Assembly: GCA_020974905.1 (NCBI GenBank)
Contig: CP087563.1
Location: forward strand, 2,542,001-2,606,000
DNA from: Planctomycetes bacterium syqfu
Lineage (GTDB): Bacteria > Planctomycetota > Phycisphaerae > Phycisphaerales > Phycisphaeraceae
Reading direction: 5' to 3'
Length of the DNA stretch: 64,000 nt
Shown: one piece after another, positions 2,919-56,778 of the stretch
Layout of the letters: each line of letters begins with the position of its first letter
Position numbering within the stretch: the stretch's first letter is position 1
The notes under the pieces: generated by a model
The model's input: only the letters and a program-made list of their open reading frames with translations
What the model was told of the DNA's origin: nothing
The model's database searches: none
Translations under genes and position numbers: made by a program

Positions 2919-3985
2919 CGAGGTGTGACTTGAATGAAACGATGACACAACTGCCCCAAGACAATGCCACGAATCAGGAAACCAGCCCGGTGCTATCGGT
3001 ACGCGACCTGCAAGTCCACTTCAAGACGCATGAAGGTTTGATCCGCGCGGTCAATGGTGTGAGTTTCGACGTGCCACGCGGTAGCATCGTCGGACTGGTT
3101 GGCGAATCGGGTTGCGGTAAAAGTGTGACGGCCTATTCGATTCTGCGTCTGATTCAAAAGCCAGGTTTCATTGCTGGCGGGAAAATTCTGTTTCACCCGC
3201 AGGAGCAATCATCGTTTGACATCTGCCAACTCAGCGAAAAATCACGTCAACTTTTTGAAATGCGTGGCGGACTGGCAAGCATGATTTTTCAGGAACCGAT
3301 GACTGCTTTGTCGCCGGTTCACACGGTGGGCAATCAGATCACCGAAGCGATCATGCTCCATAAAGATGTCACGTATCAACAAGCTCGACAAATGGCCATC
3401 GACATGTTGAGTAAAGTCGGCATTCCCGGCCCCCAACGACGCATTGATCAATACACGTTTGAACTTTCCGGGGGGATGCGTCAACGGGTGATGATTGCCA
3501 TGGCACTGGTCTGCCGACCGCAACTGCTCATTGCAGACGAACCGACGACGGCGTTGGACGTCACCATTCAGGCCCAAATCATGCGGCTGATCAAAGACCT
3601 TCAAGCCGAGATGGGCACCAGTACCATTCTGATCACACATGACCTGGGCGTCGTCGGGCAGATGTGCGATCACGTGGTGGTCATGTATCTTGGCCGTGTC
3701 GTCGAATCAGGTCCGGTGCGCCAGATCATTCATCACCCGCGCCATCCGTATACGCAGGGTTTGTTGGCATCACTACCGAGCCTTGCCATGGAACACGCGC
3801 AATTGCCATCGATTGCCGGCAGTGTCCCGAACCTGACCGACATCCCGCGGGGCTGCCCGTTTCACCCGCGATGTCCTCATGCCAAAGAAGGTGCCTGCGA
3901 TGTCGGCAAGCCCCCTGAATTGGTGACGTTGCTCAACGGCCAATGTGCAGCATGCGTCCGAGTAAACGAGATTGAACATGAGTGA
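2915..3985 (+). CDS. ABC transporter ATP-binding protein (OppD/DppD type)
   Basis: This is the first of two ATPases that power the transporter. Walker A is GESGCGKS at about residues 63-70, the signature motif is LSGGMRQR, and Walker B is LLIADEPTTALDV. The D-loop and switch histidine follow (ILITHDLGVVG). A C-terminal Opp/Dpp extension contains GCPFHPRCPHAKEGAC, the cysteine-rich segment typical of this subfamily. The start overlaps the stop of the upstream permease by four bases. The length of 356 residues is normal for OppD-like proteins (about 330-350). Confidence 0.92.
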   Translation: MTRCDLNETMTQLPQDNATNQETSPVLSVRDLQVHFKTHEGLIRAVNGVSFDVPRGSIVGLVGESGCGKSVTAYSILRLIQKPGFIAGGKILFHPQEQSSFDICQLSEKSRQLFEMRGGLASMIFQEPMTALSPVHTVGNQITEAIMLHKDVTYQQARQMAIDMLSKVGIPGPQRRIDQYTFELSGGMRQRVMIAMALVCRPQLLIADEPTTALDVTIQAQIMRLIKDLQAEMGTSTILITHDLGVVGQMCDHVVVMYLGRVVESGPVRQIIHHPRHPYTQGLLASLPSLAMEHAQLPSIAGSVPNLTDIPRGCPFHPRCPHAKEGACDVGKPPELVTLLNGQCAACVRVNEIEHE

Positions 3986-8349: not shown

Positions 8350-9861
8350 ATGACAAACCCTCTCGAAAACCTGTGGCCACCGCCCCAACATGTCACCCTC
8401 GGCAACCGTTTTCAAACGCCGGATGTCATTCAATGGGAACAACTCCCCAACATACCGTCCTGCCATGACGATGACATGCTTTTTGACATACACAAAAAAA
8501 ACACAGTCTCACCCATGACCGCATCATGGCACATTGTCCCGGGCAGTACGAAACCTCAGGGATACGAATTAAGCATTCACCCTCAGGCCATCCGCATCAC
8601 AGCCAATGATTCAATCGGCCTATCCTACGCGATGCAAACCTTACATCAGCTCCTGGCACACTTTCAAAAGTGGGGACACTGGGCTCATGTCGAAATCGCC
8701 GACCATCCCAACTACACCCAGCGCAGCGTCATGCTCGATCTTGGACGCAGCACGTTTAACATGCCCACCCTCAAACGGGTCGTGCGTTTGTTACATCGCC
8801 TCAAACTCAACCAACTGCATCTGCACCTGTACGACGATGAACTCTGTGGCCTGCGATTCGAAAACCTTCCCTTCGGCAGTGAAAATCCTTTTGCCCTGTC
8901 TCTCCACGAGCTGTCCCAATTGATCCAGTATGCACAGGCCCATCATGTCCAGATTGCGCCCGAACTCGAAGGCTGGGGCCATGTCGGTTCACTGACGTAT
9001 CACCGTCCGGATCTGGACGGCGGATCGGGCATGTACAACGGTTCGTCGTTTCTGATCGGTTCGAAAATGTTTGCGTTGATGCATCAACTGGTGCAACAGG
9101 TCGCTGCCATCCTCCCACGCCAAGCCGTCATTCACATGGGCCTCGACGAAGCACGCTGGTATCCCGATCCGAACCTGCCAGACACATTCGGCCCATCGGA
9201 CATGATCGAGAAATACCATCAGATGCTTAAGGAAATCGGGCAGACGCAAGACAAACAATTCACGATGCGCCTCTGGGCGGATCATGCAGGACATCATGTT
9301 CCTGATCACCTGCTGGATCAGGTGATTGTCGAACCCTGGCAATACTGGGCCAACCGCAAGACGGACATCGAGGAGAAGGTTCACGGTTATAGTCATACGC
9401 CGCGTTGCCGATGGATGGCTGGCGCGGGAACGAGCCTGGCCCAACATCGCGGGTCCTATCTTGCCACGCGTCACTGGTGTCAAACTGCGATTGACAGCCC
9501 CAACGTCCAAGGCATCAACATGACACTCTGGGGAACAAACGACCTGGAAAGTCGGTTTGTCAGCCTGTTTGCAGGTGCCGGTTTTTCATGGAATGCCCAT
9601 CCGACTTTGCCATGGGCCGACACGGATGACAGCGAGGATTTTGATCGCCACCTGTTCCCGATCCTACACGAATGGCGTGGCCTGTATCCTGATGTGCATC
9701 CTCAACAACTCATAGCAGATCGGGGGCCACTGGTTCATCAAGGTCTCTACCTGTACGGTCCACAACATGGCCAACCCGTCGCCCCGACCGTCCTGCGAGC
9801 CCAAACCACCAGCGGTCATGATTTTCTGGCGGAAGGTCAAAATGCAACACTCGAATCATAA
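8350..9861 (+). CDS. GH20-like beta-N-acetylhexosaminidase, probably C-terminally altered
   Basis: The first ~110 residues resemble the alpha/beta domain that precedes GH20 barrels. The barrel follows with SVMLDLGRSTFNMPTLKRVV, LNQLHLHLYDDE and APELEGWGHVGS. The family's catalytic Asp-Glu pair appears as HMGLDEARW, D266-E267. There is no signal peptide, so it should act in the cytoplasm on imported oligosaccharides. It starts six bases after the transporter stop. At 503 residues it is short for such proteins. Its last 25 bases overlap the convergent recombinase gene of the integrated element, so the original C-terminus may have been lost on integration. The exact substrate (chitobiose, N-glycan or another HexNAc) is not visible. 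Confidence 0.8.
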   Translation: MTNPLENLWPPPQHVTLGNRFQTPDVIQWEQLPNIPSCHDDDMLFDIHKKNTVSPMTASWHIVPGSTKPQGYELSIHPQAIRITANDSIGLSYAMQTLHQLLAHFQKWGHWAHVEIADHPNYTQRSVMLDLGRSTFNMPTLKRVVRLLHRLKLNQLHLHLYDDELCGLRFENLPFGSENPFALSLHELSQLIQYAQAHHVQIAPELEGWGHVGSLTYHRPDLDGGSGMYNGSSFLIGSKMFALMHQLVQQVAAILPRQAVIHMGLDEARWYPDPNLPDTFGPSDMIEKYHQMLKEIGQTQDKQFTMRLWADHAGHHVPDHLLDQVIVEPWQYWANRKTDIEEKVHGYSHTPRCRWMAGAGTSLAQHRGSYLATRHWCQTAIDSPNVQGINMTLWGTNDLESRFVSLFAGAGFSWNAHPTLPWADTDDSEDFDRHLFPILHEWRGLYPDVHPQQLIADRGPLVHQGLYLYGPQHGQPVAPTVLRAQTTSGHDFLAEGQNATLES

Positions 9862-11249
9862 GGCGGCAGCGCATTAACCGCCCCATTGACGTCCAGCAAA
9901 GCAGGATCGGTATAGAAGTTAGTGGTGAGTTCGATCCGGCTATGCCGCATGGCGGCTTGAGCGACGCGGGGATGGACACCGGCTACGGCCAGGTGGGTGC
10001 CAAAGGTGGTGCGGAGGGCGTGGATGTCGACGACCCGGCCACGCGCGTCATTTTTGGAGATTCCCGCGGACTGACAGTCGGCGTCGAAGACGCGGATGCC
10101 GGGTGGGTTATCGAACAAGAGTGTTTTGTAGCCCTGTTTGTGACGATGTTCCAAGTGCTGCTTGATCTTCTCAACCACATCGGCACGCAGTGGCAATCGG
10201 CTTTCCTTACCGCTCTTGGACTGGTTAGCGTAGAGTTCAAAGTACGGCGCGGGCTTGGCATCCAGGAACAACTGGCCAAGCGTCAGGCTGCGCAGTTCCT
10301 TGTGGCGCAGGCCTGTGGAGACGGCCATCAGGTAAAACAACGCGCGTTCCAGGCCTAAGCGTTCGAGTTTCTTGATGTTGGGTTGCTTGAGTTTGGATAG
10401 GCCGCGTTCGTAACAAATGTCCAGATTCTGCTGTGTGATGGATTCGTATTTCCAGGTTTGACGGCCTTTGCGTTTGGACTTGGGGATTTCAATTTTGCCT
10501 CGACCCCACTCGGCGATGGGACGCAGCGTGGTCGCGTGGAGAAGGTTGCCGACTTCCTCAATCGTCAGGGCTCTGCGGATGTGGCGGCGGTCACTGGCAC
10601 GATCTGCTTTCTGCACCATCGACAGCGGGTTGGCGACGATGCGTTATTCTCTGACAAGCCAGTTGCAAAAGGCATGCATTGAGATGACGTATTCGTTGCG
10701 CGTGGCAGCAGCCATGTCTTTGTCTTCAGCTTTGCTCAGCCAACGATTCATGGCATCGCTGGTGATATCGGCCAGTTTCTTGATCTTCAAATCATGAATC
10801 AGGATATTGAGCCGACTCTTAACGTTCTTGCGGTAGTTGTCCGACACCTTCCGTCCACGGACACGCTTGATTTTGAGATGTTCCAGATACTTTTCGATGT
10901 GATCGGTGATGGCTGCCTTGCTGTGTTCAGCGACTTCGATCTCCTGCGGCGTAATGAAGCCGGCACGAATCTTTTCCTGTTCAGACAGGACATCGGAGAG
11001 CACGCGCTGGGCTGCCTGCTCATCGCGGCAACCAGTAGAGATGCGTTTGTCGTTGCCAACATGATCGGTATATCTGGCGTACCAGACTTCCGAAACGTAC
11101 ATCATGCGTTTGCCGTCTTCGGCCAAGGGTGCGGTTTTGATCCTTCCGTGTTTAGTTCGCCATTGGACAGTGGGTTTGCCACGCCGGGTCACGATTTCCG
11201 CACCGTCGGGCATGGGGATCGGGTAGGTTTTCTTATACAGGTTGGCCAT
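9837..11249 (-). pseudogene. Tyrosine recombinase/phage integrase interrupted by an in-frame TAA
   Basis: Two frames in the same register make one ~470-residue integrase. The N-terminal part (11249-10644) has the SAM-like core-binding domain (ITDHIEKYLEHLKIKRVRGR). It ends CNWLVRE and a TAA at 10646-10644. The frame continues directly as RIVANPLSMVQKADR, the usual linker, with no frameshift. The catalytic part (10619-9837) has the first Arg in TGLRHKELRSL, the HxxR box in HALRTTFGTHLA and the nucleophile in NFYTD. A single base change would explain the stop. It lies at the left end of the integrated element and converges on the GH20-like gene. It is probably inactive unless the stop is read through or is a sequencing error. 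Confidence 0.88.
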
Positions 11250-12009: not shown

Positions 12010-12777
12010 CTAGATTCCGGGTGTTGGGTCTACGCATGATCCGTCGCCATTTGAGTCGCCGACGATGCAGTTGCCTTCTTCGTCCATGCAACTGGTTTCA
12101 TCGAGGACTTCGATTTGCAGTTGGACGCGAGCAGGATTGTCGTAGATGTTCCAGATGTTGGTACAGATGCTGTGATTGTGTAGTTCATCACTGAGGATAG
12201 ATGCGCTGCGGCAACTTCTGGGGGCAGATGGAATACATGCCGCGAAGATGCAACCGCAGGTGTCTTCCGAATCCTCGTTGGCATAGCCATCAACCGTGAC
12301 GTACCAGCGCGTCGTGCCATCGCCATCGCAGCCTGCGAGTACCATCGCGTTGACGTAACTGCCACAAGTTGCACCGTCAGGGACGATGCCATAGCCTTGC
12401 CAACGCGGGCCGGTGATGGTGTCGCTTTCGCAGTTGGGTTGTGGGTGGCCACCGATCATGCCGGAGTGACCGCAGCCTGGACAGTATGGCGGATTCCATG
12501 CACCGCAACTGAATGGAATCTCGATGGTGTTGCCCATGAAGGCAGGATCGGTGCAGCAACAACGTTCGTGGGTGTTGCCGTAGTCGATCAGTTGCCATGT
12601 GATTCGGATGCGAGACTGGTTGGTGAAGCAGCAAGGGCCACATGCACACGCATTGGCCGGCACCGGTTCCTGACCGCAGCATTTACCGCAGATCATGAAC
12701 AAACCCTCGTCCGTAAGGCCAAACTCTCCTGTCTCAACCTTTCGGGGGTCAAGATCGAATTCGCCGTTACTCCCCAT
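12010..12777 (-). CDS. Cysteine-rich element/prophage hypothetical protein
   Basis: This protein of about 255 residues is extremely rich in cysteine (ICGKCCGQEPVPANACACG, RCCCTDPAF, PPYCPGCGHSG). The ATG at 12777 has GGAGG nine bases upstream; a GTG six bases earlier is too close to the Shine-Dalgarno. It overlaps the tail of the upstream gene by 11 bases, so the two are probably coupled. The acidic C-terminal tail (DSNGDGSCVDPTPGI) and the many Cys pairs suggest a metal- or disulfide-stabilised structural protein, perhaps of a virion. No domain is recognised. Confidence 0.6.
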   Translation of the reverse strand: MGSNGEFDLDPRKVETGEFGLTDEGLFMICGKCCGQEPVPANACACGPCCFTNQSRIRITWQLIDYGNTHERCCCTDPAFMGNTIEIPFSCGAWNPPYCPGCGHSGMIGGHPQPNCESDTITGPRWQGYGIVPDGATCGSYVNAMVLAGCDGDGTTRWYVTVDGYANEDSEDTCGCIFAACIPSAPRSCRSASILSDELHNHSICTNIWNIYDNPARVQLQIEVLDETSCMDEEGNCIVGDSNGDGSCVDPTPGI

Positions 12778-13417
12778 CGTCACATACCTCCACAGCTAAG
12801 GTTTCGTTTGCGTCATACAGGATGAATTCACGTGACCCGTCATAGGGATTGGTGACGTAATAACCGGTGCCGATGACGCCATCACCGGTGGTGGGTGCGG
12901 TGATGAGTTTGCCTGCTGCGGGACGTTGTTTAAGCGGCGTCATTTCTTCACCGAGAATTGTGCCATCTTCCTCTTCGTCATAGGCGTCGATGGTTTTGAC
13001 GAAGTAGGTGCGATCACATTGTGTCGTTGCATCGCCATCGGTGCTACCACCATCCTGCCAGACTTTGCAGGGAATGAGCGTGGTGGTATCGACCAGGCTG
13101 GGGACACCGAGCTTGACGATGGCCCAACACGGTTCACCGATGGGGGCATCGGGTTGGCTCCATAGAATCTGCGTACTGCCGGTGGCAGACGATGCCATAA
13201 TTGCTGGGAAGCCGACCGGCGCTTTGGCAAATTGGTGTGTTTCATCGGTGATGATGATGCGAACCTGGCAGACACCCTGGATCATCGCACGGCCAACTTG
13301 CCCAGCGCGAATCGGTTCAAGCAGGATGGCATGTTTATCCATTGCCACATGCGTGTCCAGTTCGGGGAACACTCCACTGAAGACGATCTGATCGACGAAG
13401 CTGCCTTCCAGGTCCAT
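12767..13417 (-). CDS. Prophage-type hypothetical protein, probably N-terminally truncated
   Basis: This 216-residue acidic protein has a repetitive beta-rich pattern: IRAGQVGRAMIQGVCQVRII, then an ILW segment and CWAIVKLGVPS. I have seen similar patterns in planctomycete prophage structural proteins, where a longer N-terminus precedes this part. The ATG at 13417 starts only 12 bases after the preceding broken frame's stop. The first residues (MDLEGSFVDQIV) do not look like a normal leader, so the 5' end may be a deletion product. No enzyme motif is seen. Confidence 0.5.
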   Translation of the reverse strand: MDLEGSFVDQIVFSGVFPELDTHVAMDKHAILLEPIRAGQVGRAMIQGVCQVRIIITDETHQFAKAPVGFPAIMASSATGSTQILWSQPDAPIGEPCWAIVKLGVPSLVDTTTLIPCKVWQDGGSTDGDATTQCDRTYFVKTIDAYDEEEDGTILGEEMTPLKQRPAAGKLITAPTTGDGVIGTGYYVTNPYDGSREFILYDANETLAVEVCDDGE

Positions 13418-13429
13418 GATGGTTTGCGG

Positions 13430-13934
13430 TTAGTGAACCGAGTCTTCGATGCCGAGGATGAAGTAACGCCAACAATCCATGGGCGAATCGTTCTTCACCC
13501 AGATCACCCCACCTTGCCCCCGGCCCCCGGAAGCACTGGCAGATTGCATGGATTGTTCGAGTTTTTGGCGTGGCTTGATGAGCTTGCTGAAAATCCTGTG
13601 CTGCATCAATGAATGCGTTGTAGGTGTTGGCCGGGATCACCAAGGGATCGCCGGTACTGGGATTGATCGGGCCACCCAAAGCGAACTGCGATTCATACGC
13701 ATCGCGGCCTTCGAGAATTCGGCAGTGCGTCGCGCGACCAATGAGCATGGCTGTGGTTTCTTCACGCTCCATCAGCCCCAATTGCTTCTTGCGGTACAAC
13801 CACGGGCAGTTCATGAAATCGATGAGTTGATGGCTTGACAGGTAACGTGATGCCTGAGCGTGATACTCGTCTGCGGGTTCCGTCCCCAGCACGTCCAGGT
13901 CGATGGTCAGTTCCGGTTCTTCAATCTGCGTCAA
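13430..13934 (-). pseudogene. PD-(D/E)XK nuclease-like N-terminus fused out of frame to another phage gene's tail
   Basis: From a TTG at 13934 (GGAGG five bases upstream) the frame encodes LTQIEEPELTIDLDVLG and then a segment typical of the PDDEXK-like domain of phage RecB/exonuclease VIII-type proteins. Markers are SSHQLIDFMNCPWLYRKKQ, then TAMLIGRATHCRILEGRD and LVIPANTYNAF. Near 13600 this reading loses sense. A different frame takes over (KLEQSMQSASASGG, then GGVIWVKNDSPMDCWRYF) and stops at 13432-13430. The second part resembles the end of a packaging or terminase-type protein, but that is a guess. The simplest explanation is an internal deletion joining two genes, leaving both broken. 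Confidence 0.6.
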
Positions 13935-14098
13935 TTCGGCCTCCTTGAATATGGAGCGGGAAAAACTCCCGCCCTCATAGTTACTAGTTGCCGATAGGCC
14001 CAAATATCACGAGCGCTTTTTCCAAAAAAATGAAAAAAGGCAAAATCACATGTTTCGCACATGAGGATGGACCGGGGCCATGTTCACCTGTCTATCCT

Positions 14099-14137
14099 CA
14101 CATGTGCCCGGTCCAGGCTAATGTCCGGGCACATGTG
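14099..14137. promoter_or_regulatory. 13-bp perfect inverted repeat in the element's divergent spacer
   Basis: CACATGTGCCCGG (14099-14111) and CCGGGCACATGTG (14125-14137) are perfect inverted copies separated by 13 bases. They lie in the ~300-bp gene-free stretch (13935-14242) between the minus-strand nuclease fragment and the plus-strand sigma-like remnant. No T-run follows, so a terminator is unlikely; a repressor operator or recombinase site is more plausible. Elsewhere in the spacer I see a short GC hairpin at about 13950-13971 and related CACATG words near 14048-14063. Confidence 0.5.
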
Positions 14138-14242
14138 TTCGGCATCGCACAGGTCCATTCGTACATACAACCCGACAGTCCTCCGTCATGATCGTGACTT
14201 GCCGCATGGATGCGGTGCAGAAAACAGTCATGGAGGACACGC

Positions 14243-14446
14243 ATGTCGAACAAACACGCCAATGAAATTTTTCGTCAGTATTCAGGAGCATTGGAACCTT
14301 GGCAGATCAAGTTAGCCTTTGGGCGGATCAGAAGATTCAAACTGCCACCGCACACATGGGACGACGTGATGCAGGGCTTGGCGATCATCACACAGTTCAA
14401 AGCGCGTGGCATAGACAGCCAGAATACCACCAGTAAAAGGGCGTAA
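14243..14446 (+). pseudogene. Sigma-70-like element protein, N-terminal remnant
   Basis: The ATG at 14243 has a good Shine-Dalgarno (GGAGG, 14233-14237). The 67 residues include RQYSGALEPWQIKLAFGRI and then LPPHTWDDVMQGLAII. This resembles the start of small phage/element sigma-70 region 2 proteins, in which a W-x-D-V/L-x-Q segment follows two helices. The reading stops after about 55 meaningful residues and ends with an unrelated tail (NTTSKRA). Its 3' part overlaps the antisense tail of the response-regulator frame. It is probably truncated by the same deletion that altered that gene. Confidence 0.45.
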
Positions 14447-14884
14447 TGGTTTAACGATGGGTGTTGATACAGTAAGAAGTGATCTGCTTCGTGACTTCTT
14501 CAACGCTTGCCGTATGACATACAGCAACGTGCGGCCTGTCGTCGAGAACGGCTTGGAGATACTGCCGTCGATTCCCAGTTCGTGCAACTCACCCATCAAC
14601 TTAACACACTGTTGATGTTGAGCAGTCATCAATACCACAGGCACGCGCGTCTTTGCGCGAGTCTGCTTGAGTAAGTTGACCCCGTAATCTGGTGAATCAC
14701 TACCACCAGGTCGGGACGGGATTTCCAGGTCAAGTAGGATCAGGTCGTATTCGTGAATAACCAGTAGCTCATTGGCTTCCTGCTGGTTCGTCGCCCAGTC
14801 GCTGGCACATCCCAGCGATGCAAGGCAATCATCAATTGTTTTAGTTTTAATCTGCTTATCATCTTCAACGACAAGAATACGCAT
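14312..14884 (-). CDS. Response-regulator receiver protein with aberrant C-terminus
   Basis: Residues 1-~130 are a REC phosphoacceptor domain: MRILVVEDD with the acidic pair, YDLILLDLEIPSRPGG with the phosphorylatable Asp, VPVVLMTAQ with the conserved Thr, and SISKPFS with the conserved Lys. The longer-than-usual loop after the Asp is typical of response regulators I associate with planctomycete mobile elements. I prefer the ATG at 14884 over a GTG 24 bases upstream. After about residue 140 the sequence (RFELCDDRQALHHVV) is the reverse complement of the sigma-like remnant, so the natural end has probably been replaced. No output domain is visible. Confidence 0.75.
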   Translation of the reverse strand: MRILVVEDDKQIKTKTIDDCLASLGCASDWATNQQEANELLVIHEYDLILLDLEIPSRPGGSDSPDYGVNLLKQTRAKTRVPVVLMTAQHQQCVKLMGELHELGIDGSISKPFSTTGRTLLYVIRQALKKSRSRSLLTVSTPIVKPLRPFTGGILAVYATRFELCDDRQALHHVVPCVRWQFESSDPPKG

Positions 14885-15014
14885 TCGTCGTGTGCCCTTT
14901 CCGCTCACGTATTGGAAGGGTGATCATATTTTCGTCCCGGAAATGAGACGGAACCACCATGAGCTAAAACTAATTCGTCAGGCTATTCCCCCAGCCTGAA
15001 CTTTGTTACTTAAA

Positions 15015-18884: not shown

Positions 18885-19535
18885 TCAGTCAAGACCTTCG
18901 CCCGCAATGAATGCCCAGTTGGCATCATAAATACCTGCCCCATAGTGATTGGTCATTTGCCAAACCTGTACATGGCTATCACCATACAAAGCATTCAGTG
19001 ATATAAACGGGAACGTTGCATATGTAGCTGAGCCAAGTGGCAAATTGCGATGATGCCAATCAAAATTCTCATGGATGATTGGCGTGATTATCGGATTTCG
19101 CAAACTCGACTGACGCAAATTGGACTCGCGTGCCAAGTAATATCTGAACCTGTAACTAACAAACTGATAGTTTTTATTGGCGTAGTTACCTCTGACAACC
19201 TTGTTGGTGTTTGTGTCTTTAGGACAATAGAAAATATCAGGATTGTCATCATCTCTAGATATACGACTTGGCCACGAACCCCATTGACGTGCACGATAAT
19301 CCTCATTAGTCGTAATGCCACTATGATGCAATAGAGGGGCTGGGTAAAATTCTTTATTTTCGTTGCAGTAAATTTCAACCTTAACACCAATCTGCTTGAG
19401 TTTAACCATACATTTCACTCTAGTCGCAGATTCTCTGGCAGATGCCAATGCTGGCAGTAAAATTGCAATCAAAAGAGACACAATTGATATTACAACCAGC
19501 AGTTCAATTAGCGTAAATGCTTTCTTCTTATTCAT
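18885..19535 (-). CDS. Prepilin-like protein (pseudopilin) of cassette 1
   Basis: This 216-residue protein starts [20 protein letters not shown]. It has a short basic leader, the prepilin-peptidase cleavage context before Phe, the conserved Glu at mature position 5 and a ~20-residue hydrophobic helix (SLLIAILLPALASARE). A strong Shine-Dalgarno (GGAGG) precedes the ATG. The C-terminal end (SLNALYGDSHVQVWQ) corresponds to the H-X9-D(G) motif of the other five copies, but the His is not obvious and DG is DS. Pseudopilins assemble on inner-membrane platforms of type II secretion or type IV pilus systems; the local role is unknown. It sits between its regulator and the secreted enzyme, as in all later cassettes. 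Confidence 0.9.
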   Translation of the reverse strand: MNKKKAFTLIELLVVISIVSLLIAILLPALASARESATRVKCMVKLKQIGVKVEIYCNENKEFYPAPLLHHSGITTNEDYRARQWGSWPSRISRDDDNPDIFYCPKDTNTNKVVRGNYANKNYQFVSYRFRYYLARESNLRQSSLRNPIITPIIHENFDWHHRNLPLGSATYATFPFISLNALYGDSHVQVWQMTNHYGAGIYDANWAFIAGEGLD

Positions 19536-22235: not shown

Positions 22236-22470
22236 GCCAAATTCTGTGCCATAAAAACCGCCCGGTGCCAGAAATGGTGCCAAACGTCAGTCTGGGATAG
22301 GCGTTTGCTGTCAAGAATTGACAAAAGAAGACGGCCTCGAAAACCAACACAAATCTCCCTAACTCTCGCCCCGTGCGAAAAATAAACAACGGCTGACATT
22401 TGCTGTCAGTCGTCGTTAAAGAGCGGATGAGCGGATGAACGGACTCGAACCGTCGACACAATCACGTTGG
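22236..22470 (-). repeat. Cassette-border repeat, copy A
   Basis: This is a full-length but divergent copy. Reading the minus strand from the right: a tRNA-like 3' end with the T-loop GGTTCGAGTCC, an acceptor 3' strand resembling CACCCGC (here CATCCGC, with GAGCGGAT duplicated at 22422-22437), the hairpin at 22386-22416, a conserved spacer (CGGGGCGAGAGTTAGGG), a second small dyad (TTGACA/TGTCAA) and three GGCAC-type boxes toward 22240. It separates cassette 1 from cassette 2. The last codons and stop of the GH29 gene lie inside its right edge. Confidence 0.85.
22386..22416 (-). terminator. Hairpin of repeat copy A
   Basis: A stem of up to 13 bp with loop GCAAA, followed on the minus strand by TTTATTTTT, matches an intrinsic terminator for the GH29-lyase operon, whose stop is 46 bases upstream. 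The stem carries mismatches relative to other copies, so it may be weaker. Confidence 0.6.
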
Positions 22471-31507: not shown

Positions 31508-31692
31508 GTGCCGAATTAGGTGCCAAGAAAACCGCCCCGGTGCCAGAAATGGTACCAAACGTCAGTCTGGGATAGGCGTTTGCTGTCAATTGTTGACTAT
31601 AGAACCACGCCGCACAAAAATAAACAACGGCTGACATTTACTGCCAGCCGTTGTCAAAGAGCGGGTGAACGGACTCAAACCGTCGACAATCA
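31508..31692 (-). repeat. Cassette-border repeat, copy B
   Basis: The copy has four GTGCC/GTACC boxes at its left end (plus-strand view), the conserved GTCAGTCTGGGATAGGCG segment, a shortened middle that lacks the CGGGGCGAGAGTT block, the hairpin at 31624-31654 and the tRNA-like T-arm. The T-loop is changed (TTTGAGT instead of TTCGAGT), so it could not be a functional tRNA. It separates cassettes 2 and 3. Confidence 0.85.
31624..31654 (-). terminator. Hairpin of repeat copy B
   Basis: A 13-bp stem with a 5-base loop, followed on the minus strand by TTTATTTTT. The one change from the consensus stem gives a G-U pair if transcribed from the minus strand but an A-C mismatch on the plus strand. 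This favours minus-strand function as terminator of the sulfatase operon about 410 bases upstream. Confidence 0.6.
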
Positions 31693-43248: not shown

Positions 43249-43468
43249 CAGTGCCGAATTCGGTGCCAAGAAAACCGCCCCGGGCCAGAAATGGTGCAAA
43301 ATGTCAGTCCGGGTTGCTGTCAAGAATTGACAAAAAGAACACGCCCAGAAAACAAACCCAATTTGCCCTAACTCTCGCCCTACGCGCCAAATAAACAACG
43401 GCTGACATTTGCTGTCAGCCGTTGTCAAAGAGCGGGTGAACGGACTCGAACCGTCGACAATCACGTTG
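43249..43468 (-). repeat. Cassette-border repeat, copy C
   Basis: One of the best-preserved copies. It begins (plus-strand view) with the near-palindrome GTGCCGAATTCGGTGCC and two further degenerate boxes. It continues through the AACTCTCGCCC block and the perfect hairpin (43395-43425), and ends with an intact tRNA-like 3' part at 43430-43467. On the minus strand that part has T-stem GACGG/CCGTT, loop TTCGAGT and acceptor strand CACCCGC-T, which fits a glycine tRNA starting GCGGGTG. No 5' tRNA half is present beside it. It separates cassette 3 from the radical SAM island. Confidence 0.9.
43395..43425 (-). terminator. Hairpin of repeat copy C
   Basis: A perfect 13-bp stem (ACAACGGCTGACA and its complement) with loop GCAAA, followed on the minus strand by TTTATTT. 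It lies about 315 bases downstream of the radical SAM stop. Confidence 0.65.
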
Positions 43469-43740
43469 GCAACGGGGCGCGACAGTTCGTATCAATCGAA
43501 TAAAACGATAGTTATGTAATTTCGGGGTTATGAGTACCGAATTTGGTGACATGGTAACAAATTTACGTAAAACATAGTGCACAAAAGCTTTGCAAGCAAT
43601 ATCGCACGATGTCGTTTTAACCTGGTTTGGCCCAAAGGCCACGACGTTTGGCCGCGTTGCGTTCGAGCAAATGAAGTGGCTAAGATGATTGCTCTGTTCC
43701 TAAAAGCCAAACTCGTACACGTCGAATCTTCATGCTAGTA
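43469..43740. other. Spacer between repeat C and the radical SAM gene
   Basis: No gene is supported. Short overlapping minus-strand frames look like translated non-coding sequence. A box ACCGAATTTGGT near 43537-43548 resembles the GTGCCGAATTCGG boxes of the border repeat, so a more decayed copy may extend here. Confidence 0.4.
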
Positions 43741-46513: not shown

Positions 46514-47017
46514 ATGCCTTGGTTCAACAATACAGCTTATCTGAAGATGGTCGATTCCATGGCAATCATCATCGCTCAGTCCTATCAGCTTGCACGCAGT
46601 CGACTGGCATCTGCAAGTTCGCCTGTCATGCGCGCGGTGATACAGCGTGACCAGCTTTTCTCCCAAATTCAATGGCTCAAACGCGAACTCGAAATTCTGC
46701 GCCAGCAACGCGCGGACTGCCCGGCCAACAAGCGACCAGAGTTTTCACCCGGACAAAGGTGGTCATTCTGCAATTGATGAGACAGAGGAATTGGAGTGCC
46801 CCAGTTGCTGCCAGACGTTTCGTTGTGCATCCCAACACGATCCGCAAATGGATCAGAGCCATCGACGGACAAGAAGGTTCCAAGTCGCTTCTGCCTCAGA
46901 TTTCCTGGAACCGCATGGATGATGCGGTTCGTTGGGCAGTACATGAACTACGTCAGTTATGTCCCGATCCTGAAATGGGCACGAGAACCATCGCAACAAT
47001 CCGCTGCGCCGCTACAA
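46514..47017 (+). mobile_element. Truncated, frameshifted transposase (integrase-core type)
   Basis: The ATG at 46514 has GGAGG six bases upstream. The first frame (MPWFNNTAYLKMVDSMAIII, then LFSQIQWLKRELEILRQQ) gives a coiled coil typical of these transposases. Near 46757 the match shifts frame to VVILQLMRQRNWSAPVAARR and HPNTIRKWIRAIDG, a helix-turn-helix. It continues to AVHELRQLCPDPEMGTRTIA and then stops matching where repeat D begins. The DDE catalytic core is absent. It resembles planctomycete IS481/IS3-like integrase-core proteins. The element is dead and is cut exactly at the repeat. Confidence 0.65.
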
Positions 47018-47154
47018 TTGCTGACAAAAGAACTACACCCCAGAAACCAAAACGAATCCCCCTAACTCTCGCCCCGTGCGCAAAATAAACATCGGCTGAC
47101 ATTTGCTGTCAGCCGATGTCAAAGAGCGGGTGAACGGACTGAACCGTCGACAAT
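47018..47154 (-). repeat. Cassette-border repeat, copy D (5'-truncated)
   Basis: Only the hairpin-side two thirds remain: the GACAAAAGAA word, the CCCTAACTCTCGCCCCGTGC block, the hairpin (47089-47119) and the tRNA-like part (47124-47154). The GTGCC boxes are missing and replaced by the transposase remnant. The T-loop has lost one base (ACTGAACC instead of ACTCGAACC). The hairpin shows a compensating base-pair change. It separates the radical SAM island from cassette 4. Confidence 0.85.
47089..47119 (-). terminator. Hairpin of repeat copy D, with a compensatory change
   Basis: The stem is ACATCGGCTGACA with its exact complement TGTCAGCCGATGT. Both arms differ from the other copies at the paired position (A-T swapped to T-A), which keeps 13 perfect pairs. 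It lies about 143 bases after the GH63-like stop on the minus strand and is followed by TTTATTTT. Confidence 0.7.
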
Positions 47155-47261
47155 CTGGCTAATATCCTTCTGAGCCAATTTCAAGCAAGTTTACCGTTGC
47201 CCCTCAAGCACTTCCTACAACCGCGCTTAACTTTGCCGCCAGCTCAACAATTTCTCCTCGA

Positions 47262-48482
47262 CTACGTCAATTCATCAAACCGTCTAGCCATGGCTAGCAT
47301 TGGATTGTGCCCAAGATAATCTGAGCAAGGGCTGTTAAATGGGGAGGTTGGCTTACGTGCAAGAGACAGAGGAGATTGGCCATGCGGGTGATAAAACTCC
47401 CAAATGGTGCCGGTCAAATCGAACTGCCGGGCGGTCTGATCCAATGCGGCCTCCAGTAGTTGTACGGCAGCATGATCCTGCTGATAACGTTGGCAAGCCA
47501 AGGCCGCCCAGTAAGTGATACTGTTCCATGCCGGACCTCGCCACATTCGCATGGTGTAATGTTGATCACAGATTGCCAAAGATGTAATGGGATGCTGAGC
47601 AAAAAAGTGCTCAGGATTTAACAAGTGCTCGTGGATCACTGACATGGCTTGATCATGCGTGGCAGCGCCGACGACCAGAGGCCAGATCCCTTCATGTGAA
47701 AGACATCGTATTTTCGGATCGTTGACCGACCAACTGTCATGGAAGAATCCGGTTTGATGGCTGAATAGTTGATTTTGAATCAGGTCGCGCAATCGCTCGG
47801 CCTGCTGCTGATGTGATATTGCCTCATGTCCCAGTTGGGTCGCCCATCTGGATGCGGTTTCGTAGAGCAGATACAGGTGTGATGTCGCATCAATACATGC
47901 CATCGGCTCAGCAGGCAAATGGATAAATCGCACACCGTCATCAATGCCACTTTCCCATGTCTTGTTGACAATATCCTGATAGTAAAACCCACCATCAATC
48001 GCTTGGCGATATTTTTCAAACCATTGAATCTGACGTTGGAGAACAGCATAACTCTGCTGTAAAAATTCCGGGCCTGCTTGTCCAAGCACCTGATCCACCG
48101 CATAGACCCACACTGGCGGATGACCGGCATGAGGATCCCAGACGCGCGACGTACCGTTAAGCCACAGCGAACCGGGAATCATGCCATTGTCCTGTTGATT
48201 GGCAAAGTAATTTAAAAGCTGATGGCATGCATGCTCGGGTTCAGATGGCATGACATCCAAGACGGCATGAATCAAATCCCAATGCCCGAATGCTGGCCCA
48301 TAGCAATAACCTGGCCCAATCTCTTCCCATGGGTATTCAAGCCATTGACAAGGCGGATGAATGCAGCGTTCATGGAGTTTAGCGACATATTCAAGCATCG
48401 GCCGCCAACTCGGCTTGCCAAGTGTCAAAGTTTCATCGCAGAGTGCCTGTAGTAAATACGTCTTTTCTGAAACTGGCATCAC
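47262..48482 (-). CDS. GH63/GH37-like (clan GH-G) glucosidase
   Basis: 406 residues of an (alpha/alpha)6 toroid. Clan marks are YCYGPAFGHWDLIHAVLD near the start, NKTWESGIDDGVRF (the acid region), and RMWRGPAWNSITYWAALACQ, the W-R-G-P-x-W-x-x-x-x-Y-W motif shared by trehalases, GH63 glucosidases and mannosylglycerate hydrolases. There is no signal peptide. It overlaps the GH10 gene by four bases, so it may trim xylan- or glucan-derived oligosaccharides carrying alpha-linked glucose or mannose. The exact sugar is not readable. Confidence 0.82.
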   Translation of the reverse strand: MMPVSEKTYLLQALCDETLTLGKPSWRPMLEYVAKLHERCIHPPCQWLEYPWEEIGPGYCYGPAFGHWDLIHAVLDVMPSEPEHACHQLLNYFANQQDNGMIPGSLWLNGTSRVWDPHAGHPPVWVYAVDQVLGQAGPEFLQQSYAVLQRQIQWFEKYRQAIDGGFYYQDIVNKTWESGIDDGVRFIHLPAEPMACIDATSHLYLLYETASRWATQLGHEAISHQQQAERLRDLIQNQLFSHQTGFFHDSWSVNDPKIRCLSHEGIWPLVVGAATHDQAMSVIHEHLLNPEHFFAQHPITSLAICDQHYTMRMWRGPAWNSITYWAALACQRYQQDHAAVQLLEAALDQTARQFDLTGTIWEFYHPHGQSPLSLARKPTSPFNSPCSDYLGHNPMLAMARRFDELT

Positions 48483-50314
48483 TGATTATCCTTAAGACGC
48501 AGTTCAAGCACTGCACCGGCATCACCGAGTTTAAAAATTTGCTTAATGCGTTGCCCGTTGTGTGTCGCTGTAACCTGGTAGTCACCTTTGAACCCACGTG
48601 TCTTGATTTGCCCATCGGTACCAGTCATCAGTTCTTTGTCCGTCCACCATTGCCTTAATACCAGTTCTTCATAGACGCGTCCGTTGGGTTTGATGCGCCA
48701 GTGTTTGTCGAACAGGGACGCCTGTTTGTAATACATCTGTCCTTCCCAGAATCCCCAAAACGTGACTGCATTGATCGCGGGATGACTGAAAAAAACGGTC
48801 AGGGCATCGCGTGTGTAATCAGCCTGGAGAGTTTGATCCATCACATTGACGGTGAATTCAGTGACCTGGATTTTAAGTTGATGGGCTGCCAACTGATCGA
48901 GCACTTTGAGCAAACGAGTTGGTGGCGTGAGTTGCGAGCCGAAATGTCCCTGCATACCCATACCATCAAGCGGAGCGTTCTGGAGTTTGAGTTTTGAAAA
49001 CAATTGCTCGTAATAGTCGATCCGTGGCTGATCATTGCCCCCTGCAGCGATAAGGCGATTGTCATTGAGATAAGTCTGAGCCTGGGGATCAGCCTGCTTG
49101 GTTGCCTTGAGCCATTGGGCAACGGCTGTATCACCGATGAGTGTTTGCATCTGGTCACCAAGGTACAATTCATTGACCACATCGTAACAGGACACCTTGC
49201 CGGCATAAGCTCCAACCTGGTTTTGAATATGTGCCAGAAGATATTCCTGTAAAGTCTGAGGGTTGTTATCAAAGCGTTGTTTTATCGAATCGTCATACCG
49301 GTGCCATTCCGGCCAGACAAGGGTATGTCCACGAATCATGATGTCATGGTCGGCCAGCCACTGGACACTGCGATCTGCCAGGTCGCGATAGCGGGGTGTA
49401 TGCCAGTATTTGGGTTTCATCGCTCCTTCGAGTGATGCCATATTAAAGAGCTTGAGAAATGTCTGTTTATATCTGCTGTGATCCGGTTCATCGGTGATTT
49501 CCCACAGCCTGGCACTGTTGAGGACACTGCCAAAACCAAAGGCATGTCGGAGCATCTGCACATGGACCTGGACATCGGGGATGACTTTACCATGCGTGTC
49601 GACCACTTTGATTTGCAGGTCGGCTTTGCGATGTTGTTCGATGCGCTTTTGTGCTTCGTCACGCCATGGCGCATCAGGCTCGCGTCCCAGATAGGTAATT
49701 TGTGTGCTGGGTAATTCTTCGAGCTTTACGGCGTTGTCGAATCGCAACACCTGCAAATCGGCAATTTCAACAACCTGTGGTGCAAAGCCAAAGTTCAATG
49801 CCACGTTCATATCGCCGGCGGATTGTGTCTTTGGGACCTTGGACAAATCCACGCGAAACGGGATATAAAATGCAGTCCAATCCGACCCGACACTGGCTAC
49901 AAACTTGACGGACAGCTGGCGAGGAGGATGAGCCTGGCGAAATTGAAACTTAACCTGTGCTTCACCGCTGTCAGCTTGTGGCTCAATTGCGCGAGCATAG
50001 AAGGTGGCAAGCATGACCTGGCCGTGCTCAACCGTCTGCCGGGTTGGCAAAAGAATCTGCACACGCCAGTCACTGCTTGGACGCTTGATCGTCCTCACGC
50101 GCACCGCTTTGCCAAAGGGCTGACCTTGCACATCGACAATCGTCATTTGCCCATCACCGCGAGCCGGCCCGTTACTCATTTTTAAACCAGTAAGCCAATC
50201 TGCTTCCAAGATATTATGGCTGGCAGGCAAGTTGCCCTGGGACGTTGCACCCAAAGCTGAAAGGCTGAGAAGTAAACTAAGTAATAAGGCAAAATAGAAT
50301 CGTTTGGTATTCAC
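48479..50314 (-). CDS. Secreted GH10 endo-beta-1,4-xylanase with N-terminal binding domain
   Basis: About 611 residues from a GTG at 50314 with AGGA upstream; an in-frame TTG 30 bases earlier is less likely. The signal peptide is RFYFALLLSLLLSLSALGATS. A jelly-roll CBM-like domain (~35-185) precedes the barrel. GH10 marks are FGFGSVLNSARLWE, IRGHTLVWPEWHRYDD, acid/base E382 in YDVVNELYLG and nucleophile E486 in IQVTEFTVNV. The two glutamates are 104 residues apart, as usual in GH10. A small beta domain follows. It cuts xylan outside the cell and heads the enzyme part of cassette 4. Confidence 0.93.
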   Translation of the reverse strand: MNTKRFYFALLLSLLLSLSALGATSQGNLPASHNILEADWLTGLKMSNGPARGDGQMTIVDVQGQPFGKAVRVRTIKRPSSDWRVQILLPTRQTVEHGQVMLATFYARAIEPQADSGEAQVKFQFRQAHPPRQLSVKFVASVGSDWTAFYIPFRVDLSKVPKTQSAGDMNVALNFGFAPQVVEIADLQVLRFDNAVKLEELPSTQITYLGREPDAPWRDEAQKRIEQHRKADLQIKVVDTHGKVIPDVQVHVQMLRHAFGFGSVLNSARLWEITDEPDHSRYKQTFLKLFNMASLEGAMKPKYWHTPRYRDLADRSVQWLADHDIMIRGHTLVWPEWHRYDDSIKQRFDNNPQTLQEYLLAHIQNQVGAYAGKVSCYDVVNELYLGDQMQTLIGDTAVAQWLKATKQADPQAQTYLNDNRLIAAGGNDQPRIDYYEQLFSKLKLQNAPLDGMGMQGHFGSQLTPPTRLLKVLDQLAAHQLKIQVTEFTVNVMDQTLQADYTRDALTVFFSHPAINAVTFWGFWEGQMYYKQASLFDKHWRIKPNGRVYEELVLRQWWTDKELMTGTDGQIKTRGFKGDYQVTATHNGQRIKQIFKLGDAGAVLELRLKDNQ

Positions 50315-50359
50315 GTCTTTTCCTGTCAATTGGTACATATTCAATGAAGCAATAAGCTA

Positions 50360-51136
50360 TTATTTTTCTTTGCGATAGTAATAGCGGACATCCCCGTCTC
50401 GGCCCTGGAACATGGTGTCGTGATCCATGGTGGAGCAATGCATATCCACCCAGAGAATATTCAAACCATCACTATGGCGATCGCTGACGTTATTGGGATA
50501 TTTATCCGGCAAGACCAGTTGTGAATAATGTGCTGCATAGGCCGTGTTGCCTGATTGCTTAACGCCCAGTGAATCACGGTCATCACCATCACCTAGCAGT
50601 GCAGTTAAAGTCGGTTTCAGAAATGTGTCACGTCGTTGACGCAATCGTTCCGGCCCGACAAGCGAACCATCCCCCCAGGTCGAACCCGTCTCCTGGTCGC
50701 CAGCATAGGAATAGTTCCAACCATAACCGCCTTCGGTGTAGCGCTCACGCTCGAATATCAAATCAAATGACGGGCAACGATACACACCCACGGTCAGTGT
50801 TAACGTGTATTGGTAATTGCGATTGTCATAATTCATGTACGATGAAATCTCATCGCGCCACTGCACGGGTTGATCCCAACTGGTTCCCGATTGATGAGAG
50901 CGTGGCAACCAGTCGTTAAAGTCTGAGGCATAAGCAGAACTGGCCACACCCAACTGACGCTGATTGGAAAGACAGGCCACTGTCCGTGAGGCGGCACGTG
51001 CTTTTTGTAATGCCGGAATCAAAATGGAAATAAGCAGCGAAATGATCGAAATCACAACCAACACTTCAATCAGAGTAAATGCCTTTGAAACACTTGGCAT
51101 GGACACACGTATAGCAAGCATCTGTCGATGTTTCAT
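50360..51136 (-). CDS. Prepilin-like protein (pseudopilin), cassette 4
   Basis: 258 residues with a long leader ([19 protein letters not shown]) before [20 protein letters not shown], keeping Glu5. The C-terminal signature is H221-X9-D231-M ([19 protein letters not shown]), a variant of H-X9-DG. The aromatic, basic tail YYYRKEK is unusual. It is 45 bases upstream of the xylanase start and downstream of the LacI gene. Confidence 0.92.
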
Positions 51137-51180
51137 ATCTTGATCCTATCTGTCACAATCGAGTCTATATTGCTGTCAAC

Positions 51181-52188
51181 TCAGCGCGTTCCGGTATCGG
51201 CTGGACCGGTGGATTGACGTATCTTCAATGTCACGGGCAAGACGACTGGCTCATACATGTCCGGCTGATCCTGCTCAACCATCTCCAATAACTGCTTAAC
51301 CGCATGATCGACCAATGACTGGCTGGGAATGTCCACGACCGTCAAGGGCGGGATGGTGTAGGCGGTCGCAGGTGGATTGTTGAAAGTGGCCACGCTCACA
51401 TCCTCAGGCACGCGAACCTGCCGCTGCCAACAGGCATGTAAAAATGCTGTAGCCAAAGCATCGTTGAACACCACCACTGCTGTGGGGCGAACCGGCAGAT
51501 TGAAAAAATCATCGAACCCTTCTTCAACCGAGCCTCGGATGACTTTGAAATCTTCTTTCCGGACACCTGCTGCAAGGCAGGTTTGTTTGAGCATCGATTC
51601 GCGCATCTGATAACTGTAGTGATTACGTTTGCCATGCGGCTGCATGAATGCGATGCGGCGATGTCCCTGGTCGAGCAGATATTCACCGAGCAACCGAGCC
51701 CCTTGCTGATCATCTGGTCGAGTCGATGCAAAGCCAGACACCGGATTGGTGTTGATCAGGACAGCTGGCAAGTTCGCCTGCTCCAATGCCTCCCGCACCT
51801 GAGGCAGGAGTTTATGCATCACCAGGCAACCATCAAAGCGGCGATCCAATAAGGCTTGAATGCTCCGTGGTGACCCGGCTGGGACATATTGCATTTCGTA
51901 ACCCCGCCCGTGCAATCGATCCGCGAGACGATGAATGATGTCCTGCCAGTGTGCAGACCCAAAAGGCATCGAGTTTTCGTGAAGCAGCCCAATCGTACAG
52001 GTGCTGCCTGAACGCAATGCCCTTGCGCGCCAGTTGGGGCGATATCCCAACTCATTTGCAATAAGACGGATACGATCAGCTCGCTCCCGTGCACTAGGCC
52101 AGGTTTCCTTGCCATCGTTACGGAGAATCCGCCGAACCGTTGCCTCAGAAACCCCTGCTTTTGCTGCAATGTCTTTAATGGTTGCCAT
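51181..52188 (-). CDS. LacI-family regulator of cassette 4
   Basis: 335 residues starting MATIKDIAAKAGVSEATVRR, a textbook LacI HTH. The hinge helix (NWRARALRSG) follows, then a ribose-binding-like effector domain (CTIGLLHENSMPFGS, then AVVVFNDALATAFLHA and VSVATFNNP). It is first in the operon, ahead of the pseudopilin and xylanase. A released xylo-oligosaccharide is a likely inducer (inference). Cassettes 2, 3 and 5 use GntR proteins in this position. Confidence 0.94.
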   Translation of the reverse strand: MATIKDIAAKAGVSEATVRRILRNDGKETWPSARERADRIRLIANELGYRPNWRARALRSGSTCTIGLLHENSMPFGSAHWQDIIHRLADRLHGRGYEMQYVPAGSPRSIQALLDRRFDGCLVMHKLLPQVREALEQANLPAVLINTNPVSGFASTRPDDQQGARLLGEYLLDQGHRRIAFMQPHGKRNHYSYQMRESMLKQTCLAAGVRKEDFKVIRGSVEEGFDDFFNLPVRPTAVVVFNDALATAFLHACWQRQVRVPEDVSVATFNNPPATAYTIPPLTVVDIPSQSLVDHAVKQLLEMVEQDQPDMYEPVVLPVTLKIRQSTGPADTGTR

Positions 52189-52320: not shown

Positions 52321-52513
52321 GAAGTGCCGAATCCGGTGCCAGAAAAACCGTCCCGGTGCCAGAAGTGGTGCCAAACGTCAGTCTGGGACAGGCGTTTGCT
52401 GTCAAGAATTGACAAAAGGAACACGCATCCAAAACGAGAGCAAATCGCCCTAACTCTCGCTCCGTGCGCCAAATAAACAACGGCTGACATTTGCTGTCAG
52501 CCGTTGTCAAAAG
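52321..52513 (-). repeat. Cassette-border repeat, copy E (tRNA part lost)
   Basis: This copy keeps the GTGCC boxes at its left, the CAGTCTGGGACAGGCG segment, the CCCTAACTCTCGC block and a perfect hairpin (52477-52507). It stops right after the hairpin at AAAGAG; the T-arm and acceptor sequence of the other copies are missing. It separates cassettes 4 and 5, ending 31 bases before the cassette 5 enzyme stop. Confidence 0.85.
52477..52507 (-). terminator. Hairpin of repeat copy E
   Basis: A perfect 13-bp stem with loop GCAAA followed by TTTATTT on the minus strand, only 38 bases after the stop of the cassette 5 secreted gene. This is the best-placed intrinsic terminator in the window. Confidence 0.72.
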
Positions 52514-56366: not shown

Positions 56367-56551
56367 ACACATCCTATACTTAGCTAAATTAAAGTCAAGA
56401 ATATTCATTGCAACAATTAGAATTAGATAATATGGACACAAACCTGCTGCAAAACTGTAAAGCATTTGCATATCACTCCACCAGCAGGAGAATTACACCA
56501 TTAAATGCACAATAATAAAGCCTTCTCAGCTTCCTGAAAAAATCTCTTTTC

Positions 56552-56778
56552 AGTGTCAAAATCGGTACCAGAAACCCCACACAAGTGCCATAAATGACGC
56601 CAAACGTCAGTCCGGGGTAGGCGTTTGTTGTCAAGAACTGACAAAATAAACACGCCTAAGAGCAAAGCCAGAATCACCCTAACTCTCGCCCCGTGCGTAA
56701 AATAAACAACGGCTGACATTTCCTGTCAGCCGTTGTCAAAGAGCGGGTAAACGGACTCGAACCGTTGACAATCACGTT
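56552..56778 (-). repeat. Cassette-border repeat, copy F
   Basis: The right-most copy. Its boxes are degenerate (GGTACC, GTGCC, GACGCC). The CAAACGTCAGTCCGGGGTAG segment, the CCCTAACTCTCGCCCCGTGC block, the hairpin (56706-56736) and the tRNA-like end are well kept. The acceptor strand has one change relative to copy C (GGGTAA for GGGTGA on the plus strand), as does the edge of the T-stem. It separates cassettes 5 and 6. Confidence 0.87.
56706..56736 (-). terminator. Hairpin of repeat copy F
   Basis: A perfect 13-bp stem with loop GGAAA on the minus strand, followed by TTTATTTT. No minus-strand gene lies just upstream, so here it is not obviously needed as a terminator. This argues that the repeat is more than a terminator. 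Confidence 0.55.

Follow-up and report, generated by a model that had tools for sequence, protein, structure and literature searches.

A hairpin repeated at prophage attachment sites in a Planctomycetes chromosome is very probably the terminator of a tRNA-Gly gene

Six copies of a repeat with a hairpin-forming sequence lie within a 64,000-nt stretch of the chromosome of Planctomycetes bacterium syqfu (the window; positions 2542001-2606000 of the single contig of 7,376,598 bases that makes up the genome). In one of them, copy D, both arms of the hairpin have changed in step. This raises the question of what the repeat is, and whether such a paired change indicates selection for an RNA structure. 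The features of the window are collected in Table 1.

The copy D hairpin is an inverted repeat with 13/13 complementary positions (47089-47101 and 47107-47119: ACATCGGCTGACA, 5 nt, TGTCAGCCGATGT). Window copies at 43395, 52477 and 56706 read ACAACGG...CCGTTGT and are likewise paired at 13/13 positions. The sequence-only reading had described the change in copy D (ACATCGG for ACAACGG, CCGATGT for CCGTTGT) as one that retains all 13 pairs, and this is borne out. Its description of copy B (31624-31654) is also correct: pairing on the DNA is 12/13, and the sole change gives G-U on the minus strand and a mismatch on the plus strand. Absent from that reading was copy A (22375-22424), the stem of which contains one G-U and one uncompensated A.C. 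The minus-strand RNA of copy D folds at -24.2 kcal/mol (z -8.1; 0/200 shuffles are equally stable) and the usual hairpin sequence at -23.8 kcal/mol; with just one of its two changes, copy D folds at -19.9 or -19.5 kcal/mol.

Table 1. Features of the window (window positions; names of attachment-site and terminator features follow the identification given as very probable in the text)
Feature	Positions	Strand	Remarks
Terminator hairpin, copy D	47089..47119	(-)	13 bp stem, loop GCAAA, A-U to U-A double change
T-tract (TTATTTT), immediately 3' of copy D hairpin	47082..47088	(-)	T-tract 0/144 changed across own copies
tRNA-Gly(GCC) 3' half, copy D (T and acceptor arms)	47124..47155	(-)	without one T-loop base
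Attachment-site copy A	22236..22470	(-)	8-nt duplication within tRNA half; hairpin with one G-U and one A.C mismatch
Attachment-site copy B	31508..31692	(-)	one G-U (minus strand) in hairpin
Attachment-site copy C	43251..43480	(-)	hairpin and tRNA half both unchanged
Attachment-site copy D	47015..47155	(-)	141 nt, 91.5% to tRNA copy; P' arm shortened by IS-like sequence
Attachment-site copy E	52324..52511	(-)	tRNA half gone, hairpin intact
Attachment-site copy F	56550..56778	(-)	loop GGAAA, intact stem, tRNA half with two changes
Broken integrase (one stop)	9858..11249	(-)	family of the array's intact integrases, 94% identical
Prophage backbone remnant	12010..14908	(-)	four ORFs common with other units
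Cargo between copies D and E	47262..52188	(-)	MGH1-like glycoside hydrolase, GH10 protein, DUF1559/N-methyl protein, LacI regulator

The repeat is much longer than the hairpin, extending up to 168 nt in one comparison and about 233 nt in another. Read on the minus strand, the full repeat runs from the anticodon loop of tRNA-Gly(GCC) to the 3' end of the tRNA, through the terminator hairpin and its T-tract, and then through about 150 nt in which GGCACC motifs occur. Ahead of the hairpin are the T arm and acceptor arm, and the hairpin follows the tRNA 3' end.

A search of the whole genome with 91 nt around copy D gave 26 rows, of which 25 are on the plus strand within 2.491-3.218 Mb; these represent 24 places, as one copy is split into two rows. 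A piece at 2512116 consisting of the P' arm only is not counted as a copy. The resulting array of 24 copies (2.491-3.218 Mb) has a single orientation and an intact tRNA-Gly at one end. ARAGORN detects a single tRNA gene between 2480001 and 3260000 (780 kb): this tRNA-Gly(gcc), which lies at 3218192-3218265 on the minus strand, at the right-most copy. A perfect match to the tRNA from position 30 (anticodon stem) to its last or last-but-one base is found in nine other array copies, and some of the tRNA 3' half is retained in 23/24 copies. Full copies extend 188 nt beyond the tRNA end. A second full-length tRNA-like match (85%) is found at 0.35 Mb.

On the tRNA-ward side of 10 of the genome's own copies, and at nine places in same-genus loci, there is a conserved P arm of about 80 nt (search tolerance: at most six mismatches over 31 nt). 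It ends ...ACTTGCAACCCACAACACCCC directly before GTTGCCAACG of the anticodon stem-loop. GGCACC motifs are present both in this P arm and in the distal P' arm, and the layout of the arms is that expected of an attP recombined at the anticodon loop. We conclude that the repeat is very probably an attachment site whose hairpin serves the tRNA-Gly(GCC) gene as intrinsic terminator. Since related prophages lie between the copies of this attachment site, the hairpin would be a tRNA terminator re-supplied by every integrating phage.

Within the window, Rfam gives no match at gathering score and ARAGORN no tRNA; we attribute this to the presence of just half a tRNA. A strict 40-nt attachment-site pattern has no match in IMG/VR. 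Integron attC sites were considered initially from the spacing and orientation of the copies, and were dropped when the repeat proved to be a tRNA end beside phage-type integrases. A dispersed regulatory RNA or REP-like element was ruled out by the joining of the tRNA 3' half to the hairpin.

One further copy of the repeat is located outside the array, on the minus strand at 6.425 Mb (6425270-6425508). Its core is GTTGCCATCG, no P arm was found on its tRNA-ward side, and it perhaps reflects integration at a secondary site. An IS-like HTH ORF adjoins copy D (window 46672-47088). The IS end seen there also adjoins an attachment-site copy in the same-genus genome G003 (contig C88, copy near 3109); 11 matches to this IS end were found, mostly away from attachment-site copies.

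The array spans 727 kb as a stack of 23 units, which are 3.2-99 kb in size and have the 24 copies at their boundaries. Related prophages and what is left of them thus occupy about a tenth of the chromosome in a single stack and carry defence-type and sugar-degradation cargo. PF00589 is found at 28 places in the genome, and one array integrase used as query has 17 matches there. Intact integrases of about 470 aa are present in nine of the 23 units; eight of the nine were aligned (3119489 was left out) and are 92-95% identical to the first. A tenth array-type integrase, in the window, carries a stop. Five short integrase fragments are located within the array or immediately to its left; further away are a piece of 195 aa (3.36 Mb) and a 43% relative (3.78 Mb). 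The integrase is not beside the attachment-site end of its unit but 10,970 to 36,652 bases from the P-arm end.

Large units share a backbone of about 35 kb, while both ends of each are mostly private. Twenty backbone proteins (19 from unit 11, one from unit 13) were scanned against Pfam. Families found are integrase, minor tail protein, capsid, lambda-type portal, terminase nuclease, methylases, primase and helicase; 9/20 proteins have no family. There are 12 portals in the genome, seven of them in the array, in seven of the 23 units; units 18 and 19 and the small units have no portal match. The five portals outside the array (1.07, 3.35, 3.71, 5.71 and 5.79 Mb) are 91-94% identical to the array portal, and only the one at 3.35 Mb is near an array-type integrase piece (3.36 Mb).

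Integrase C-terminal fragments occur at 2804514, 2823355 and 2980551, inside units 14 and 18; some large units may therefore be merged older elements. Two 6-kb units (2892406-2898452 and 2961488-2967532) are near-equal in length and have left attachment-site copies with a common unusual tRNA-ward flank, which suggests a segmental duplication inside the stack.

Private cargo was examined by Pfam scan of 40 proteins, chosen by size, from units 13, 19, 20, 21 and 22; many have no family. TIR and nSTAND proteins act in defence. On the integrase side, unit 22 encodes DruA, DruD and a PD-(D/E)XK protein; unit 21 encodes GmrSD, WYL, a type IIG restriction-methylase and a PLD/SNF2 helicase; unit 19 encodes TIR-nSTAND1 and patatin; unit 13 encodes nSTAND3 and a sulfatase; and unit 20 encodes RhuM and an AcrB-type efflux pump. 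The PADLOC scan covered ten proteins of units 20-22. The opposite side of units 13, 19, 20 and 22 contains sulfatases, GH42, GH32, BNR, CBM9, PhyH and regulators. All five units carry private cargo, which among them includes defence-type genes, sulfatases and glycoside hydrolases. In several units the defence-type genes sit between P arm and integrase, and the sulfatases and glycoside hydrolases are mostly at the opposite end.

The stack very probably grew as follows. Temperate tailed phages of one family, equipped with a tyrosine integrase, would recombine at the anticodon loop of tRNA-Gly(GCC). The attP of each phage would carry a replacement for everything downstream, namely the tRNA 3' half, the terminator and the arm region. 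Integration would give the tRNA a new 3' end and terminator, and would push the previous phage with its own copy one place away; repeated rounds would produce the stack of 23 units. New phages probably enter at the tRNA end. The hairpin has the form of an intrinsic terminator, being G+C-rich and followed by a T-run downstream of a gene, and from its sequence and position it probably terminates transcription. Each copy would have been a working tRNA terminator right after its phage integrated, and the hairpin may be retained because a phage with a bad copy would harm tRNA-Gly expression.

The tRNA half should be perfect at integration, so its decay in a buried copy would measure the time since burial, and the repeat becomes a time-ordered record. 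A 29-nt tRNA stretch is perfect in 13/14 copies from 2.6395 Mb to the tRNA and in 2/10 copies further left (Fisher p = 0.0005, with a cut point that was chosen after the data were seen). In this count the lost half of copy E and the truncated copy at 2634308 are scored as not perfect. The fuzzy scan for the 29-nt stretch skipped copies with indels, the tRNA-half state of which was read from alignments; for copies 3012755 and 3215074 the tRNA-half counts include one terminal position beside a gap, and both are perfect over the 29-nt stretch. The sole exception on the right is copy 2716503, which is decayed though it lies among intact copies. All six window copies and the window's broken integrase fall in the old part of the array. 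Copy D sits in this decayed part; lacking one T-loop base, it is a dead duplicate and no longer a usable tRNA end. In an empty-site comparison, the flanks of the tRNA in the same-genus genome G002 map to 6.09 and 5.35 Mb of the genome, not to the two ends of the array.

A wider role for this arrangement is conceivable, though we consider it doubtful. By carrying the tRNA 3' half and terminator, attP would make integration cost-free however often it occurs. The site would then act as a prophage-sized integron with an open-ended stack, in which each phage adds genes of its own at its two ends (defence modules close to the integrase, genes for polysaccharide degradation opposite) and buried terminators insulate neighbouring units.

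Divergence from the consensus differs between parts of the repeat. In local alignments of the genome's own copies, 15/925 positions are changed in the tRNA half, 8/312 in the 5' stem arm, 5/310 in the 3' stem arm, 10/120 in the loop and 0/144 in the T-tract; in the flank, 224/1062 are changed over the next 48 nt, then 131/1055, then 96/1033. The stem is thus changed at 2% of positions, like the tRNA half, the loop at 8% and the flank at 21%, so that stem changes are about four times rarer than loop changes. These figures support a conserved structure in minus-strand RNA, which position and form would make a terminator.

Covariation was assessed in 41 hairpins, 23 from this genome and 18 from the three same-genus genomes (G001-G003), 26 of them distinct. 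Two own copies are excluded, 2491388, which has lost half of the hairpin, and 2609352, from which it is deleted; so are copies of relatives that are interrupted by contig ends or N (L074, L083, L087, L088 and the second copy of L075). Twenty-four stems are unchanged and 17 changed, and 97.3% of cells are paired. The sequence-only reading had named beforehand uncompensated stem changes as evidence against its claim; these are present, with at least one non-standard pair in 12/17 changed stems (eight at the outermost pair, four inside). Changes on both sides affect 2/13 pairs, one in copy D and one in the tRNA-Gly terminator of G002. This count is matched by 14/500 shuffles, a control that ignores relatedness, and by two of six slid structures (-3 and +1). 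The covariation score of 0.074 is reached by 2/500 shuffles and by no slid structure (highest 0.023). Among G-U pairs, 7 are on the minus strand and 2 on the plus strand (one-sided p = 0.09; indel copy L073 excluded); one change recurs in three of the seven, and these three may be non-independent. Direct covariation in these sequences appears weak.

The claim that the paired change and the G-U pair indicate selection for structure in minus-strand RNA is therefore sound in part. A conserved structure is indicated by the stem, the T-tract and the position after the tRNA; that the two facts cited for it show it is not supported, as covariation is thin and the lean in G-U pairs is not significant. 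The proposed covariation check points both ways: the score exceeds that of all six slid structures, and the number of both-side changes is one that some shuffled and slid controls also reach. Setting selection against simple duplication without function is a false choice here, because the copies, as attachment-site duplications, can be both duplicated and functional. Real as the compensatory change is, it is neither needed nor sufficient to show function. The case cautions against inferring selection on a given repeat copy from a compensatory change in its hairpin.

Of 61 genomes searched for the 233-nt repeat (this one and 60 relatives), 51 have a match. The full repeat recurs in two of the three same-genus genomes, G001 and G003, with at least 13 and 11 matches respectively, many of which continue past the hairpin; G002 has one match, which ends at the hairpin. 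Beyond the genus, coverage among the matches listed is at most the first 90 nt of the repeat.

An integrase at E 1e-60 or better is found in 23/301 genomes of the order, and the integrase search also matches Phycisphaeraceae bacterium NAT22 and Phycisphaerales bacterium UBA7800. Integrase context outside the genus was examined in eight of these 23 genomes (G008, G029, G033, G035, G039, G045, G057 and G065). A tRNA-Gly is located 0.2-0.4 kb from the integrase in G029 (tcc), G033 (tcc), G035 (gcc), G039 (ccc) and G065 (tcc), and 4-7 kb from it in G045 and G057; G008 has no tRNA-Gly in the 20 kb around its integrase. Given these short distances, the 11-37 kb in the present genome looks derived. 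G045 and G057, in which the integrase is 54-55% identical, each have three tRNA-Gly copies in one direction, and the intact tRNA-Gly(gcc) lies at one end of the row. A T-run follows the hairpin in three of the six copies (the lowest one of each genome and the middle one in G057). The hairpins of the other three, which include both copies beside the intact tRNA, lack a T-run; carrying a terminator in attP is thus not a general trait of this integrase group.

Alternative explanations differ in how much of the locus they cover. One concerns only the double change in copy D and leaves the attachment-site explanation untouched: a substitution in a single arm may have been copied across the inverted repeat by template switching, in one DNA event and without selection on RNA. 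This has a little under an even chance of being correct. According to an extract of PMC8794818, template switching can fix the pairing of existing stems and so produce compensatory changes. A change from A-U to U-A cannot go via G-U, and the broken tRNA half of copy D implies that selection on this copy has lapsed; both points favour template switching. It leaves unexplained, however, the conservation of the T-tract and tRNA half alongside the stem. Also against it is the G002 tRNA-Gly terminator, in which a further pair has changed on both sides (C-G to A-U), although that change could share a template-switch origin. If selection was responsible, the double change in copy D would date from the time when its phage was under selection, which is about equally likely. 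The inverted repeat might also owe its retention to recognition of the DNA by the integrase or an accessory protein, and not to a role as RNA. It does lie inside the attachment site, between core and P' arm, and TGACAGCAA is found in the P' arm too. We regard this as improbable: the hairpin also follows tRNA-Gly in G002, and the match there stops just beyond the hairpin, with no alignable P' arm; the minus-side T-tract is conserved; other arm-like motifs (GGCACC) occur in both P and P'; and single-side changes lean, though not significantly, to G-U on the minus strand.

The remaining two alternatives address the repeat or the stack as a whole. Near-identical backbones assemble poorly, and at least four G001 contigs (C4, C52, C79, C266) start inside the repeat, as would be expected if the stack were an assembly artefact of near-identical prophages. 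This is very unlikely, given that the large units are anchored by several kb of private cargo at both ends, that the genome is a single 7.38 Mb contig and that shorter stacks are present in G045 and G057. Less probable still is a free-standing dispersed RNA or palindromic element (REP-like, mobile terminator or small RNA) that spread by itself; many copies, a strong hairpin and the lack of an Rfam match at gathering score in the window would fit it, but the hairpins of the array copies seen are attached to tRNA-Gly sequence or attachment-site arms, and the copies have a single orientation and end at the tRNA.

As an attachment site, the repeat belongs to a known kind of system. The features of tRNA-gene prophages are present (a partial tRNA 3' repeat at the far end, an intact tRNA at the other, a tyrosine integrase and phage structural genes), as are those of tandem accretion (direct repeats, one orientation and a common integrase type). 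The locus is an unusually large, prophage-based variant of serial integration at an RNA gene; the mechanism is ordinary and the scale unusual, the differences being in prophage number, length and the terminator within the repeated block. The following comparisons draw on extracts of the papers cited. In Dehalococcoides, tandem genomic islands lie downstream of one RNA gene, ssrA; as here, each is bounded by a repeat of the RNA gene 3' end and niche genes are carried (PMC3146451). Those islands have a serine recombinase and a 20-bp repeat, with all repeats within 100 kb, and transfer is thought to rely on other systems (PMC3146451); here there are a tyrosine integrase, a repeat of about 233 nt that includes a terminator, a span of 727 kb and phage structural genes. 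In Mycobacterium abscessus, serial integrase-mediated insertion of temperate phages at one site, a tRNA-Thr gene, has been proposed for tandem prophages such as prophiT36-2 (PMC9934374), as it is proposed here. That case has two prophages and is deemed unusual by its authors (PMC9934374), whereas here nine units have intact integrases, seven of them with portals, among 23 units in all.

ICEs such as SXT/R391 and ICESt1 form tandem arrays by accretion; like the units here, elements with a common integrase and site stack up (PMC3218068). ICE arrays are conjugative and described as inherently unstable (PMC3218068), whereas the present stack is long and partly old. Prophage YA3 in tRNA-Ser has an attP that restores the tRNA 3' part (PMC7326022), and the attachment sites of Pf-5 prophages lie over the anticodon and T loops, again with the tRNA 3' part restored (PMC2647930). 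The shared block of YA3 is 64 bp and stops 1 bp past the tRNA (PMC7326022), whereas here it runs through terminator and arm. In contrast to tRNA-gene prophages such as YA3, the integrase here is 11-37 kb from the attachment-site end. Aquatic Methylophilaceae contain tRNA-bound additive islands and tycheposons, one island having recurring 20-bp tRNA-Lys ends and one a tyrosine recombinase with metabolic cargo (PMC10872708). Unlike these islands, the units here encode capsid, portal and terminase. A tycheposon would be expected to have no virion genes, and this classification was rejected since the proteins of units 11 and 13 include all three. In titles and abstract openings of the papers listed by searches on tandem prophages, attachment sites with terminators and Planctomycetota, a scope that most subscription papers fall outside, no such stack in Planctomycetota is apparent.

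Relatives of the phage genes are also found in virus collections. Portal relatives are encoded by 272 IMG/VR stretches; the best 14 of the 80 retained have 88-93% identity, and their neighbouring genes match the unit 20 backbone in order. In INPHARED the portal matches 363 records, all below 60% identity, eight of which are listed at 27-29%. The integrase has one partial match in IMG/VR and none in INPHARED.

The window also contains five 71-nt repeats, about 70% alike, at 19450, 30057, 39691, 51012 and 55046. The copy at 51012 is inside an N-methyl/DUF1559 gene; consequently, this repeat family is probably the signal region of a prepilin-like gene family.
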